From Solidesulfovibrio sp. (lineage in GTDB: Bacteria; Desulfobacterota; Desulfovibrionia; Desulfovibrionales; Desulfovibrionaceae): a DNA stretch of 42,515 nucleotides. The position numbers were made by a program, and so were the translations under genes. How positions within the stretch are numbered: position 1 is the first letter of the stretch; each line of letters starts with the position of its first letter. Of this stretch, positions 4,961 to 31,355 are shown piece by piece. The stretch covers positions 1-42,515 of the forward strand of contig NZ_JARKOZ010000145.1 of NCBI RefSeq assembly GCF_029978005.1, written 5' to 3'. The notes under the pieces are model-generated. The model was not told where the DNA came from, searched no databases, and saw only the letters and a program-made list of their open reading frames with translations.

Positions 4961-5036
4961 TGGTGGGCCTACCAGGATTCGAACCTGGGACCTGCCGGTT
5001 ATGAGCCGGTGGCTCTACCAACTGAGCTATAGGCCC
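4961..5036 (-). tRNA. tRNA with CAU anticodon (probably Ile2, possibly elongator Met)
   Basis: A complete 76-nt cloverleaf on the minus strand with encoded CCA (4961-4963). The acceptor stem GGGCCTA/TAGGCCC pairs perfectly, the D-stem is GCTC/GAGC, the anticodon loop CTCATAA, and the T-arm CCAGG-TTCGAAT-CCTGG. The first anticodon-stem pair (27:43) is A-C and unpaired. G1:C72 and the absence of three G:C pairs before the loop exclude initiator tRNA. C4:G69 and C5:G68 in the acceptor stem are the features used by TilS lysidine synthase in E. coli to pick tRNA-Ile2 over elongator tRNA-Met, which favours Ile2 here. That identity is inference. Confidence 0.93.
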
Positions 5037-14412: not shown

Positions 14413-16041
<1,629 letters not shown>

Positions 16042-23752: not shown

Positions 23753-24181
23753 CTATTTTCCTCGGTCCGTGTCCGTTGCCGCGTCGAGCGCCGCCGGCGG
23801 TCTTCCCGAGACGAGGATCGTCCCCTCGGGCTCGCCCATGCGCACCAGGCCGTTGACGACCGCGCCGTCCTCGATGACCACCGCCGGGGCCACAAGGTTG
23901 CCGCGCAGGTTGGAGCGCTTGTGCAGGGTCACCCGCTTGCTCGCCTCCACATCGCCGACGATGGTGCCGCTGGCCACGAGTTCGGCCACGCGGATGGTGC
24001 CTTCGACATGGCCTTCCTCGCCGAGCACCAGCACGCCGTCGGAAATGATGTCGCCGATGACGCCGCCGTCGATGCGCACGACGCCCTGGAAGTTGAACTG
24101 GCCGTGGTACTGGGTGCCCGCGCCGAGAAAGGCGGTGATGGCGTCGTTGCGGGGTTTTTTCTTCGCGTTGCGTCCGAACAT
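23753..24181 (-). CDS. Bactofilin (polymer-forming cytoskeletal protein)
   Basis: A 142-residue bactofilin (formerly DUF583). A short charged N-terminal tail (MFGRNAKKKPRNDA) precedes a right-handed beta-helix core (about 20-125) built of repeated hydrophobic/glycine rungs such as GVVRIDGGVIGDIISDG and HVEGTIRVAELVASGTIVGD. Bactofilins polymerise without nucleotides, often at the membrane, and organise wall-modifying enzymes, stalks or polarity. The usual M23 peptidase partner is absent; instead a lipoprotein and an MscS channel lie upstream on the same strand. AAGGA precedes the ATG. Confidence 0.92.
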   Translation of the reverse strand: MFGRNAKKKPRNDAITAFLGAGTQYHGQFNFQGVVRIDGGVIGDIISDGVLVLGEEGHVEGTIRVAELVASGTIVGDVEASKRVTLHKRSNLRGNLVAPAVVIEDGAVVNGLVRMGEPEGTILVSGRPPAALDAATDTDRGK

Positions 24182-27139: not shown

Positions 27140-28441
27140 TTACGGGCGCGGGGACCGTCTGTCCATTGGGGTGTAGGGATGGCGCTTGCGACCGGTGTAT
27201 ATCTGGCGCGGCCTGTGGATGCGCTGGTCCGGGGAATGGGTTTCCTCGTTCCAGTGGGCGATCCAGCCGGGCATGTTGCCCATGGCCGTGATGACCGGAT
27301 ACATGTTGGGCGGGAAGTTGAGGGCCCGCAGCAGCAGGCTCGAATAGAAGTTGGTGTTGGGCAAAAGCTGGCGCGAGGCGAAGTAGTCGTCCGCGCCGGC
27401 GCGTTCCTCGATCTCCTGGGCGATGTCGTGGAAGGCGTCGCGCTTGGCGTAGCCGGTGGCGACGAGCTTCTGGTAGGTGGCCTTGATGATGCGGGCCCTT
27501 GGGTCCTCCACGTGGAAGACCCGCTGGCCGAAGCCCATGAGCCGGCCGGAGCGGGACTTGGCCGCCTCGATGATGCGCGAGACGGTGGTGCGCCCGGCCT
27601 CCACGTCCTCGAACATGCGGATGGCGGCCGAGCTGGCCCCGCCGTGGTGGCGGCCCCACAGGGCGCAGATGCCCGAGGAGACCGAGGCGAAGAGGTTGGC
27701 CTGGCTGGACCCCACCATGCGCACCGTGGCGCAGGAGGTGTCGAGCGCCTGGTCGGCGTGGCACATCATGAAGATGCTCAGCGCCCGCACGACCGGGTCC
27801 GGGGCCTCGTAGGTCCAGAAAGGCACCGAGAACATCATGTGCAGAAAGTTGCGGCAGTAATCCAGGTTCGGATTGGGGTAGTTGAGCGGCATCCCCTGGG
27901 ACTTGCGGAAGCTGAAGGCGGCGATGGTGCGCACCTTGCTCATGATCTTGGCCGCGGCCAGGCGGAAGTCGTCCTGGGAGCTGATGTCGTAGAGCTCGGG
28001 GTAGTAGCTGCCCATGGCGTTGATCATGGCCGAGAGGATGGCCATGGGGTGGCCGTTGGGCGGAAAGCCGTCGAGGTGGCTCAAGAGATCCTCGTGGAGG
28101 AGCTCCTGGTCGCGCAGCATGACGCGAAACGCCTCGCGTTCGGCCTTGGTCGGCAGCTCGCCGAACATGACGAGCATGGCCGTTTCCACAAAGGTGGCTT
28201 TTTGCGTCAACTCTTCCAGGTCGTAGCCGCGGTAGAGCACCACGCCTTTTTCGCCGTCGATGTGGGTGATGGCGCTTTTGCACACGGCGGTGTTGGCGTA
28301 GCCCGGGTCCAGGGTGATCCAGCCGGTCTGGGCGCGCAGCTTGCGCACGTCGACGGCGTTCTCCACGTGGTCGCCGTGGATGACGGGCAACTCGACGCTC
28401 TGGCCGTCGTAGGTCAGCGTGGCGGTTTCGGGTGTGCTCAT
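27140..28441 (-). CDS. Citrate-synthase homologue with substituted active-site residues
   Basis: A 433-residue homologue colinear with type II (E. coli GltA-like) citrate synthase along its whole length, including the N-terminal beta domain and WIAHW and RPRQIYTG near the end. Aligned by eye with E. coli GltA, the catalytic H264 is kept (H266 in RHHGGAS). However H229 is Q231 (CHADQA), H305 is Q306 (GFGQRVF) and D362 is N364 (PNTNFYSS). Arginines of DPRA and RPRQ remain. Normal condensation of acetyl-CoA with oxaloacetate is therefore doubtful. It may be a specialised, regulatory or inactive paralogue; Desulfovibrio relatives are known to use an unrelated Re-citrate synthase. AAGGAAG precedes the ATG at 28441. 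Confidence 0.85.
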   Translation of the reverse strand: MSTPETATLTYDGQSVELPVIHGDHVENAVDVRKLRAQTGWITLDPGYANTAVCKSAITHIDGEKGVVLYRGYDLEELTQKATFVETAMLVMFGELPTKAEREAFRVMLRDQELLHEDLLSHLDGFPPNGHPMAILSAMINAMGSYYPELYDISSQDDFRLAAAKIMSKVRTIAAFSFRKSQGMPLNYPNPNLDYCRNFLHMMFSVPFWTYEAPDPVVRALSIFMMCHADQALDTSCATVRMVGSSQANLFASVSSGICALWGRHHGGASSAAIRMFEDVEAGRTTVSRIIEAAKSRSGRLMGFGQRVFHVEDPRARIIKATYQKLVATGYAKRDAFHDIAQEIEERAGADDYFASRQLLPNTNFYSSLLLRALNFPPNMYPVITAMGNMPGWIAHWNEETHSPDQRIHRPRQIYTGRKRHPYTPMDRRSPRP

Positions 28442-28498
28442 GCGACTTCCTTATTGGTATAAGCTTTCTTTCTACCCCGGCCGTCATCCTCTGTAAAG

Positions 28499-28514
28499 CC
28501 GGGAGGCCTCCCGG
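28499..28514. promoter_or_regulatory. Perfect 16-bp palindrome between divergent units
   Basis: CCGGGAGGCCTCCCGG is a gapless palindrome in the 132-nt region between the citrate-synthase homologue and lutA. It is followed by GGGGTTGACCCC. It is 59 nt upstream of the lutA start and suits an operator for a dimeric regulator, but could be chance in GC-rich DNA. Confidence 0.35.
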
Positions 28515-28573
28515 GGGTTGACCCCGGCGGGAAGCGGCGTAAGTTCACGCCCCGCCAGCGAAGGAGGTTTTCG

Positions 28574-29296
28574 GTGGATGCCTTTCTGTTCATTCCCTGC
28601 CTGGTGGCCCACGTCATGCCGCAGGTGGGCGAGGCCACGGCCAGGGTCCTGGCCCGGGCCGGCGTGACGCCCCGGCTGCCGGACGGCCAGACCTGCTGCG
28701 GCCAGTTCGCCTACAAACGCGGCCTGCCGGAGGCGGTGCGGCCGCTGGCCCGGCGTTTCGTGGAAATTTTCGAGGACGCCCCGGCTGTGGTCGGGCCGTC
28801 GGGTTCGTGCGTGGCCATGGTGCGACGCTATCCCGAGCTTTTCGACGCGGACGATCCCTTCCGCCGGCGCGCCGGCCGCGTGGCCGCCAAGACCTACGAA
28901 CTGGGCGAGTATCTGGTCGACGTCCTCGGCTGCCCCGACCTCGGGGCGCGTCTGCCGCTTCGGGCCACGCTGCACGCCTCCTGCCAGACCACGCGGGTGC
29001 TCGGCGTGGGCGGGCACACCGAACGGCTGCTGGCCGGGGTGGCGGACCTGATCCTGACGCCGCTGCCCCATCCCGAGCGCTGCTGCGGCTTCGGCGGCGG
29101 GTTCAGCGTGGACTACCCGGAACTGAGCCAGGCCATCCTGGACAAGAAGATCGAGGACATCCTGGCGGCGGACGTCGCGGCCGTCATCGCGGCCGAGCCG
29201 AGCTGCCTGCTCAACATCGGCTCGGCCCTGGCCAGGCGCGGGGCGGCGGTGCGGACCCTGCACCTGGCCGAGGTCCTGGCCGGGGAGGCGGCATGA
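28574..29296 (+). CDS. lutA: Lactate utilization protein LutA, cysteine-rich Fe-S subunit
   Basis: A 240-residue protein with two CCG domains: TCCGQFAYKRG at 40-50 and ERCCGFGGGF in the second half, which bind Fe-S centres as in heterodisulfide reductase and GlpC/GlcF. In the LutABC complex it takes part in L-lactate oxidation to pyruvate. The start is a GTG at 28574, set by AAGGAGG at 28561-28567; no in-frame ATG fits. Its stop overlaps the lutB start (ATGA, 29293-29296). It is first gene of a compact lutABC operon. No lactate permease is adjacent. Confidence 0.92.
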   Translation: MDAFLFIPCLVAHVMPQVGEATARVLARAGVTPRLPDGQTCCGQFAYKRGLPEAVRPLARRFVEIFEDAPAVVGPSGSCVAMVRRYPELFDADDPFRRRAGRVAAKTYELGEYLVDVLGCPDLGARLPLRATLHASCQTTRVLGVGGHTERLLAGVADLILTPLPHPERCCGFGGGFSVDYPELSQAILDKKIEDILAADVAAVIAAEPSCLLNIGSALARRGAAVRTLHLAEVLAGEAA

Positions 29297-30687
29297 GCGC
29301 GGCAAAACACGATTTCGCCAAGGCGGCGGCCAAGGCCCTGGACGACCGGGAGAGCCGGGCCATCCTTGATAGGGCCATCTTCCACATCGACGTGCTGCGG
29401 CAGCGTTCGGTCAAGGCCATGCCGGATTTCGCCGAGCGCCGGGCCCGGGCCGTGGCCGTGCGCGAAAAGACGCTGGCACGGCTGCCCGAGCTGCTCGAGA
29501 CCCTGGAGGCGCGGGTGACCGCCGCCGGCGGCCGGGTGCACTACGCCGAGGACGCGGCCCAGGCCGCCGCGACCGTCACGGACATCCTCACGGCCGCGGG
29601 CGCGAAGCTCGTGGTCAAGGGCAAGTCCATGGTGAGCGAGGAGATCGGGCTCAACGACGCGCTGGCCGCGGCCGGCATCGAAGCCGTGGAGACGGATCTC
29701 GGCGAATACATCATCCAGCTCGCCGGCCAGCGGCCTTCGCACATCCTGGCCCCGGCCCTGCACGTGTCCAAGGAGCAGGTCTCGGCCCTTTTTCAGGAGA
29801 AGCTCGGCCGCACCAGCGCCGACATTCCGGAGATGACCCGCATCGCCCGCGACAGCCTGCGCGAGAAGTTCCTGGCCGCCGACGCCGGCATCACCGGCTG
29901 CAACATCGCCGTGGCCAGGACCGGCACGGTCACGGTGCTGGAAAACGAGGGCAACATCCGCTTCTCCGCCTCCTGCCCGCCCGTGCACGTGGCGCTCATG
30001 ACCCTGGAGAAGGTGGTGGAGACGCTTGCCGACGCGGCCGCCATCCTCGACATCCTGCCGCCTTCGGCCACGGGGCAGACCCTGCCCGTGCACCTGTCCT
30101 TTTTCACCGGCGCGCGCCGGGACGGGGAGCGCGACGGCCCGCGCGAGATGCACCTGGTCGTCGTGGACAACGGCCGCTCGGCCGTGTTGGCCGACCCCGT
30201 CCTGCGCGACATCCTGCGCTGCATCCGCTGCGGGGCCTGCCTCAACGTCTGCCCGGTCTACCAGGCCGTGGGCGGCCACGCCTACGGCTCGGTCTACCCC
30301 GGCCCCATGGGCTCGGTGCTCTCGTCCGTGCTGGCGGGCGGCGAGGGTGATCCGCGCCAGCCCTTCGCCTGCACCCACTGCGCCGCCTGCGCCGGGGCCT
30401 GCCCGGCCGGCATCGACCATCCGGCCCTGCTCCAGGAGCTGCGCCGCCGCCTGGCCGCGACCGAGCCCGATCCGGCGGCCAGGGCCTTCGCCGCCCTGGC
30501 CCGCCATCCCTGGCTCTTCGACGGCCTGGCCGCCGTCGCCCGGACCGTGGACCCGCGCCTGACCAAGACGGCCGCATTGGCCCCGGATTCGCCGGTGGGG
30601 CGTTTTCTGCGCGGCCGGCGCTTCCCGGGCCTGGCCCGGCCGTTCGCCCGGCGTTTTCGCAAGATGGGCCAGGGAGGAAAATCATGA
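29293..30687 (+). CDS. lutB: Lactate utilization protein LutB (LUD domain plus 2x[4Fe-4S])
   Basis: A 464-residue iron-sulfur subunit. The LUD domain (about 65-300) contains VVKGKSMVSEEIGLN and TGCNIAVARTGTVT; two [4Fe-4S] motifs follow at C310-C313-C316-C320 and C360-C363-C366-C370. The C-terminal region after 380 is the usual DUF3390-like tail, arginine-rich at the end. It carries electrons in lactate oxidation to an unknown acceptor, probably at the membrane menaquinone pool. The ATG overlaps the lutA stop and its own TGA overlaps the lutC ATG, giving translational coupling throughout. Upstream frame extension to 28807 lies inside lutA and is rejected. Confidence 0.93.
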   Translation: MSAAKHDFAKAAAKALDDRESRAILDRAIFHIDVLRQRSVKAMPDFAERRARAVAVREKTLARLPELLETLEARVTAAGGRVHYAEDAAQAAATVTDILTAAGAKLVVKGKSMVSEEIGLNDALAAAGIEAVETDLGEYIIQLAGQRPSHILAPALHVSKEQVSALFQEKLGRTSADIPEMTRIARDSLREKFLAADAGITGCNIAVARTGTVTVLENEGNIRFSASCPPVHVALMTLEKVVETLADAAAILDILPPSATGQTLPVHLSFFTGARRDGERDGPREMHLVVVDNGRSAVLADPVLRDILRCIRCGACLNVCPVYQAVGGHAYGSVYPGPMGSVLSSVLAGGEGDPRQPFACTHCAACAGACPAGIDHPALLQELRRRLAATEPDPAARAFAALARHPWLFDGLAAVARTVDPRLTKTAALAPDSPVGRFLRGRRFPGLARPFARRFRKMGQGGKS

Positions 30688-31355
30688 ACGCGTGCGCCAA
30701 GATGGCGATTCTCGGGCGGCTCCGCGCCGCCGTGGAAGGCGTCGGACCGGCCGGATTTCCCCGGCCCGCGCCCGCGCAAGGCCTTCGCCGGGCCGGAGCC
30801 GGGGCGGCGGATTTCGCGGTCTTCGCCGGGGCGCTGACCGCCCTGGGGCCGACCTTCGAGCTGGCCCGCACCCCGGACGAGGCCCGGGCGGCCGTCGCCG
30901 GGGCCGTGGCCCGCCACGAGGTGCGCACCGCCGTGGCCTGGGACCATCCCGACCTGGCCGCCGTGGGGGCCGTTGCCGTCATCGAGGGGGCCGGGGCTTC
31001 GGTGCTTTCCCCGGACGATCTGCCCGGGCGGGCCTGTCCTTCCCTGGCCGCCGTGGACATGGGCATAACCGGCGTGGCCTACGCCCTGGGGGCCACAGGC
31101 AGCCTGATCCTGACCGCCGGTCCTTCCATGCCGCGAAGCGCCGCCCTGGTGCCGCGCCTGCACCTGGCGCTGGTCGCCCGGTCGCGGCTGCTGCCCGACC
31201 TGCCGGCGCTGTGCGACCGGCTGGCCGGCGGGCCCATGCCGAGCGCCGTCAACTGTGTGACGGGCGTCTCCAGCACGGGCGACATCGAATTCGTCTACGT
31301 GCGCGGCGTGCACGGCCCGCTCGCCGTGCACGTCATCGGCCTCGACTGGCTCTAG
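30684..31355 (+). CDS. lutC: Lactate utilization protein LutC (LUD domain)
   Basis: A 223-residue LUD-domain protein, the third LutABC subunit. Characteristic elements are the central strand region (VAWDHPDL, AVGAVAVIEGAG) and the conserved C-terminal GITGVAYALGATGSLIL and NCVTGVSSTGDIE with the final HGPLAVHVI. Length fits the family (200-240). The ATG overlaps the lutB stop (30684-30687); GGGAGG lies just upstream in lutB. It ends the operon; 48 nt after it lies a palindromic repeat that may act as 3' end structure. Confidence 0.9.
   Translation: MNACAKMAILGRLRAAVEGVGPAGFPRPAPAQGLRRAGAGAADFAVFAGALTALGPTFELARTPDEARAAVAGAVARHEVRTAVAWDHPDLAAVGAVAVIEGAGASVLSPDDLPGRACPSLAAVDMGITGVAYALGATGSLILTAGPSMPRSAALVPRLHLALVARSRLLPDLPALCDRLAGGPMPSAVNCVTGVSSTGDIEFVYVRGVHGPLAVHVIGLDWL

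Follow-up and report, generated by a model that had tools for sequence, protein, structure and literature searches.

A citrate-synthase-like paralogue with a rewritten catalytic pocket in Solidesulfovibrio and a related genus

Citrate synthase is a textbook enzyme, and its active site is nearly invariant in the relatives compared here. The window analysed here, a 42,515-nucleotide stretch of Solidesulfovibrio sp. DNA, encodes a citrate-synthase-like paralogue (CSL) that occurs genus-wide with a rewritten pocket, and a related genus, g41, holds an intermediate form in which H229 is kept. What does such a protein do, if it keeps the fold of a central enzyme and changes the residues that perform its chemistry? 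CSL offers a tractable case of a central enzyme turning into something else, and the label 'citrate synthase' on it would mislead carbon-metabolism models of these sulfate reducers.

CSL is encoded on the minus strand by an uninterrupted open reading frame of 433 residues (Table 1). The citrate synthase fold profile PF00285 matched residues 47–412 with 355.7 bits, and citrate synthases were its top solved relatives (4tvm, 400.9 bits). For reference, CSL and its relatives were aligned with GltA of E. coli MG1655 (L058), whose numbering, without the initial methionine, is used below for the ordinary enzyme. The intact frame aligned colinearly with this protein, which bears out the description of a full-length GltA-colinear homologue in an earlier note on this DNA. 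Like the hexameric type II Si-citrate synthase (GltA, PF00285), CSL has the full-length fold including the N-terminal type II region and retains H264, R314, R407 and K167. Unlike GltA, it has H229, N232, H305, D362, F383 and R387 replaced and falls below both NCBIfam equivalog cut-offs for citrate synthase (NF004126/TIGR01798), with 468.9 bits against 505 and 404.9 bits against 485.15. The 2-methylcitrate synthase profile TIGR01800 was matched with 246.4 bits (cut-off 421.3), and the catalytic triad is broken. Citryl-CoA lyase has the fold in common with CSL, but the match to its profiles (PRK06224-type, about 260–280 positions) was weak, at best 76 bits against a cut-off of 212, and no profile was matched above its cut-off.

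Table 1 Features of the CSL locus, in positions of the window
Feature	Position	Strand	Basis
CSL, citrate-synthase-like paralogue, 433 aa + stop	27140..28441	-	ORF, translation, profile and structure-relative matches
Codon of Q231 (E. coli H229; H in related genus g41)	27749..27751	-	alignment with GltA and paralogues
Codon of D234 (E. coli N232)	27740..27742	-	alignment with GltA and paralogues
Codon of H266 (retained E. coli H264)	27644..27646	-	alignment with GltA and paralogues
Codon of Q306 (E. coli H305)	27524..27526	-	alignment with GltA and paralogues
Codon of R315 (retained E. coli R314)	27497..27499	-	alignment with GltA and paralogues
Codon of N364 (E. coli D362, the catalytic base)	27350..27352	-	alignment with GltA and paralogues
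Codon of T385 (E. coli F383, which contacts the acetyl group); V/I in related genus	27287..27289	-	alignment; role of F383 from PMC11167817
Codon of N389 (E. coli R387)	27275..27277	-	alignment with GltA and paralogues
Codon of R410 (retained E. coli R407)	27212..27214	-	alignment with GltA and paralogues
MscS/MscK-like mechanosensitive channel gene, 838 aa	24610..27126	-	PF00924, PF21082
Bactofilin gene, downstream of CSL	23753..24181	-	PF04519, 83.6 bits
Gap between CSL and divergent lut genes, 132 bases	28442..28573	.	alignment
Divergent lutABC-like L-lactate oxidation genes	28574..31355 (28574-29296, 29293-30687, 30684-31355)	+	CCG, LUD, 4Fe-4S domains

We then compared the pocket residue by residue in an alignment of 92 distinct sequences, comprising 74 ordinary citrate synthases (E. 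coli included), 13 CSL proteins of the window's genus, three CSL proteins of g41 and two fragments (L056 and L057) that were excluded from the ordinary rows. H226, H229, N232, R314, R387 and R407 are taken by us to be active-site residues of citrate synthase. The positions H229, N232, H264, H305, R314, D362, R387 and R407 showed no exception in the 74 ordinary sequences; at the same eight positions the 13 CSL proteins of the window's genus read Q-D-H-Q-R-N-N-R and the three of g41 read H-D-H-Q-R-N-N-R. In all 16 CSL proteins, the catalytic base D362 is thus N, H305, which serves the oxaloacetate carbonyl, is Q, and R387 is N, and the catalytic H264 on the acetyl-CoA side is present (H266). F383, which contacts the acetyl group, is T in 13 of them and V or I in the other three. 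The HADHEQN motif reads HADQALD in the CSL row of the alignment.

These comparisons agree with the earlier note in placing Q231, Q306 and N364 at H229, H305 and D362, and H266 at H264. Its statement that the substrate arginines are kept held for R314 (R315) and R407 (R410) and failed for R387, which is N389 in CSL. It had also called all replacements near-isosteric amides; R387N, F383T and N232D are not, and two of these changes, F383 to T385 and N232 to D234, had escaped it. The Q/Q/N set is conserved in all 13 CSL proteins of the window's genus, but g41 keeps H229.

Could CSL still be a weak or altered citrate or methylcitrate synthase? In favour, the whole fold is kept together with H264, R314 and R407, but five to six active-site residues that are invariant in the 74 ordinary enzymes have been replaced, and CSL scores under the cut-offs of both citrate synthase equivalogs and of TIGR01800. 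According to the E. coli study, F383, D362 and H264 are important in citrate synthase and F383A loses 97% of kcat (PMC11167817). According to the Caulobacter study, single substitutions of the CitA residue equivalent to H305 (H306-equivalent) abolish complementation (PMC7083601). A residual synthase is therefore very improbable.

The departure of CSL from the ordinary enzyme is concentrated in the pocket. Among the 74 ordinary sequences, 75 columns are invariant; eight of these (E. coli 230, 231, 232, 268, 305, 362, 383 and 387) are altered in all 16 CSL proteins, and all eight lie in catalytic motifs, namely the H229–N232 loop, four residues past H264, H305, D362 and F383–R387, which indicates that the pocket is where CSL departs. 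Five of the eight fall among ten active-site residues (hypergeometric p = 0.0007), a list drawn up after part of the alignment had been seen. L233, D234, Q306, N364 and N389 are identical in all 16 CSL proteins across about 37% divergence and are therefore unlike what a drifting pocket would show. Part of the pocket is not fixed, since the residues at E230 (A/G), N268 (S/G) and F383 (T/V/I) differ between the CSL proteins of the two genera, and the retention of H229 in g41 indicates that the rewriting was stepwise.

New ionisable residues common to the 16 CSL proteins (classes D/E, H, K/R, C and Y) are H60, R110, D194, D234, Y323 and R/K418, and D234 is the sole one inside the substrate-site motifs. 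We also considered a neighbour that could supply the missing groups, a new histidine at 265, and rejected it: this residue is H in nine, Q in three and R in one of the genus proteins and L in all three of g41, and so provides no conserved substitute. Because an AlphaFold2 model built from seven sequences was poor (mean pLDDT 44.6), the pocket geometry described here rests on the sequence alignment.

The genome has one other PF00285 gene (contig C161, locus L001), on a different contig from CSL. Its product, which the earlier note did not mention, keeps all canonical catalytic residues, scores above the two NCBIfam citrate synthase cut-offs (567 bits against 505 and 505.6 against 485.15) and is 57.8% identical to CSL. 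A canonical paralogue in the same genome would therefore leave CSL freed from citrate synthesis. The earlier note had argued from the unrelated Re-citrate synthase of Desulfovibrio relatives; with an ordinary Si-type gene in the genome this argument is not needed, and Re-citrate synthase is moot as an explanation for CSL. PF00682 had four matches in the genome: one citramalate synthase, one LeuA, L090 and one match of 24.5 bits under the cut-off. L090 (G000 C14), the third HMGL-like gene, passed no NCBIfam cut-off among its 25 best matches and might be homocitrate synthase-like or a Re-citrate synthase. A citramalate synthase gene for the alternative isoleucine route lies in the window at 14413–16041 on the minus strand (TIGR00977, 711.9 bits over 450).

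CSL accompanies the ordinary gene in all 14 genomes of Solidesulfovibrio examined and in all three of g41; in one of these genomes (G109) both genes lie in pieces over several contigs, and in G690 and G691 CSL was assigned by score alone. In the order sample, with at most five candidates scored per genome, 113 of 297 genomes matched the CSL profile. Fourteen of these carry CSL, 13 full-length at at least 867 bits in addition to the pieces of G109, and the other 99 gave nothing above 677 bits. The phylum sample yielded matches in 183 of 395 genomes, of which only that of the window and the three of g41 exceeded 700 bits, and across these 297 order and 395 phylum genomes CSL was found in no other genus. 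In a scan of named species, CSL proteins of 83–92% identity came from Solidesulfovibrio alcoholivorans, S. aerotolerans, two records under the name Desulfovibrio and two MAGs of S. magneticus, in one of which CSL is split into two pieces; a MAG of a delta-proteobacterium gave an ordinary citrate synthase (55%). No description of CSL was found among the literature matches listed.

Within the genus (eight genomes, 28 pairs; Nei–Gojobori counts), dN/dS was 0.049–0.200 for CSL and 0.013–0.263 for the ordinary gene. CSL is thus under strong purifying selection within the genus, constrained like the ordinary enzyme. Thirteen distinct full-length proteins of the genus, that of the window among them, share the same pocket residues, which are therefore no assembly slip; together with the low dN/dS, this excludes a pseudogene or an assembly error as their origin. 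Between the two genera, CSL is 61.7–65.0% identical and the ordinary gene 76.3–80.8%, with dN/dS of 0.29–0.56 and 0.18–0.33, respectively. The higher values for CSL also fit a spell of relaxed constraint.

In the tree, CSL forms a single clade (100/100) on a long stem, and the ordinary genes of the two genera form a separate clade (100/99). CSL stands in an open fork of the full tree; joining it with the GltA of the same two genera costs 0.12 log-likelihood (p-AU 0.414), and a duplication in their common ancestor is not rejected. We propose that CSL is a GltA paralogue whose origin lies in, or predates, the common ancestor of the two related genera, and that the oxaloacetate/acetyl end of its active site was rebuilt later. 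D362N (base), H305Q (acid), R387N, F383T/V/I and N232D are replacements present in both genera; H229 is replaced only in the window's genus.

Judged by its residues and their conservation, CSL appears to be a neofunctionalised paralogue, neither decaying nor an ordinary citrate synthase, because its pocket is rewritten, its gene is intact and constrained and a normal enzyme is present in the same genome. It very probably no longer makes citrate. The earlier note had likewise expected ordinary Si-citrate synthase chemistry to be lost and the fold kept, and the replacement of the base, the acid, an oxaloacetate arginine and the acetyl-contact phenylalanine, together with the missed cut-offs, gives this strong support from the sequence. 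The combination found here, of catalytic residues gone, an open reading frame intact and constrained and an active-type paralogue present, is that of a pseudoenzyme paralogue.

We tentatively favour the reading that CSL would be a ligand-binding, metabolite-responsive regulator that makes no citrate, because amides have replaced the base and the acid, CSL retains H264, R314 and R407, and the two genera agree in most of the new residues. The amides would keep hydrogen bonds in the pocket and lose its acid–base groups. In its re-charged pocket CSL might bind, with no turnover, either a CoA thioester or some mono- or amino-carboxylate metabolite, and it might act as an oligomeric metabolite-responsive regulator in the acetyl-CoA/lactate economy of the cell.

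The retained H264 and the otherwise invariant N232, which has become D in 16 of 16 CSL proteins, also suit a new enzyme. Such an enzyme would perform another acyl-CoA thioester reaction (condensation, lysis or hydrolysis) on a substrate minus one oxaloacetate carboxylate; H266 would hold the carbonyl of the thioester, and D234 would be the new acid or base. R387N and N232D would together make a locally positive charge negative, the kind of shift that a different substrate would require, and the tight constraint on CSL within the genus fits as well. But the classical acid and base are lost, the substrate-site motifs contain no new ionisable residue common to the 16 CSL proteins other than D234, and no biosynthetic cluster was seen among the neighbours examined, so that we regard a new enzyme as possible, if on the unlikely side. 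The new ionisable group of D234 could be catalytic, which would favour the enzyme. A more specific version, a charge-swapped pocket (R387N with N232D) that has lost the ordinary base and acid and in which D234 would serve as the new acid/base for an acyl-CoA and its mono- or amino-carboxylate partner, in a reaction that this fold is not known to catalyse, seems slightly more doubtful still.

Known citrate synthases donate R407 across the dimer, where it acts on the partner subunit. CSL keeps this residue, shares more than half of its positions with the GltA of the same genome and co-occurs with the ordinary gene in 17 of 17 genomes of the two genera, all of which would suit a regulatory subunit that co-assembles with GltA and lends it R407 while its own site is silent. 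We consider this unlikely: H264 and R314 of CSL itself are also kept, and in this genome the genes sit on separate contigs.

The earlier note had placed CSL upstream of an MscS channel, and an MscS-family gene indeed follows it on the same strand in all 16 loci that reach there, each of which has the bactofilin gene as well; the 16 include the same genome under two identifiers (for example, L006 and L043). In the window the channel starts 13 bases past the CSL stop. Going by predicted starts, a possible channel start lies at most 22 bases from the CSL stop in most other loci and further downstream in the rest. The channel matched the MscK model with 197 bits over its C-terminal part, far below the model's cut-off; the protein consists of this MscK-like C-terminal part and a long, unassigned N-terminal part. 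In 59 sampled genomes of the family, channel relatives scored above 700 bits in four alone: that of the window, those of two congeners and one of g41. All four carry CSL. Channel homologues at a greater distance were also inspected, in four stretches of other genera and as second copies in the window's genome and in one g41 genome, and no CSL, bactofilin or lut gene was found beside them at E 1e-5. The linkage to the channel is confined to the two related genera.

On the other side of CSL, the lutABC-like genes adjoin it in 12 of the 16 loci that reach upstream and are absent in L006, L043, L041 and L042; the LutB/LldF homologue scored 416.1 bits, just below the NCBIfam cut-off of 444.8. The sequence GCTTTACA upstream of CSL is conserved in 12 of 12 genus rows of the alignment, and a promoter and terminator scan of 28380–28640 gave no match at threshold. 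As to the role of CSL, the channel and lactate genes give no more than hints from their position. An RNA element was rejected as a candidate, the sole Rfam match in the window at gathering score being a tRNA (4964–5036, minus strand).

The bactofilin and channel genes downstream would be in keeping with a moonlighting or structural protein whose pocket is irrelevant, a role with a precedent: in the Caulobacter study, CitA controls the cell cycle without its catalytic activity, and CitC failed to complement an E. coli gltA deletion (PMC7083601). Like CitA and CitC, CSL would be a citrate synthase paralogue with a role beyond, or without, citrate synthesis, but unlike CSL, CitA is itself an active enzyme, and the accessible part of that study does not describe CSL-type residues for CitA or CitC (PMC7083601). 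Identical new pocket residues in both genera would not be expected of a protein with an irrelevant pocket, and we hold this role to be quite improbable.

Finally, we extended the alignment with 40 hand-picked, mostly more divergent citrate synthases of the phylum (39 from the phylum sample and one from the order sample). The resulting 132 rows comprised 110 with all ten active-site residues, two that differ only at H226, the 16 CSL proteins, two fragments and two (L162 and L163) that differ otherwise, so that the full set was present in 110 of the 114 rows that are neither CSL nor fragments. L163 departs only at N232, and L162 lacks H264 and D362. Like CSL, the paralogues L162/L188 (G366), L194 (G706) and L197 (G705), from another order of the phylum, have altered catalytic residues; unlike CSL, they carry N or Y in place of H264 and G or E in place of D362, and keep H229, H305, R314, R387 and R407. 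L194 and L197, which are related to L162, have Y264 and E362. Since these paralogues changed other residues elsewhere in the phylum, such drift may be commoner than apparent. In G366 the altered paralogue lies about 4.3 kb from the ordinary copy. A further locus, L050 (G014:C213:1-1700), has a partial PF00285 match of 69 bits in a genome that also has a stronger match, and is perhaps citryl-CoA lyase-like.
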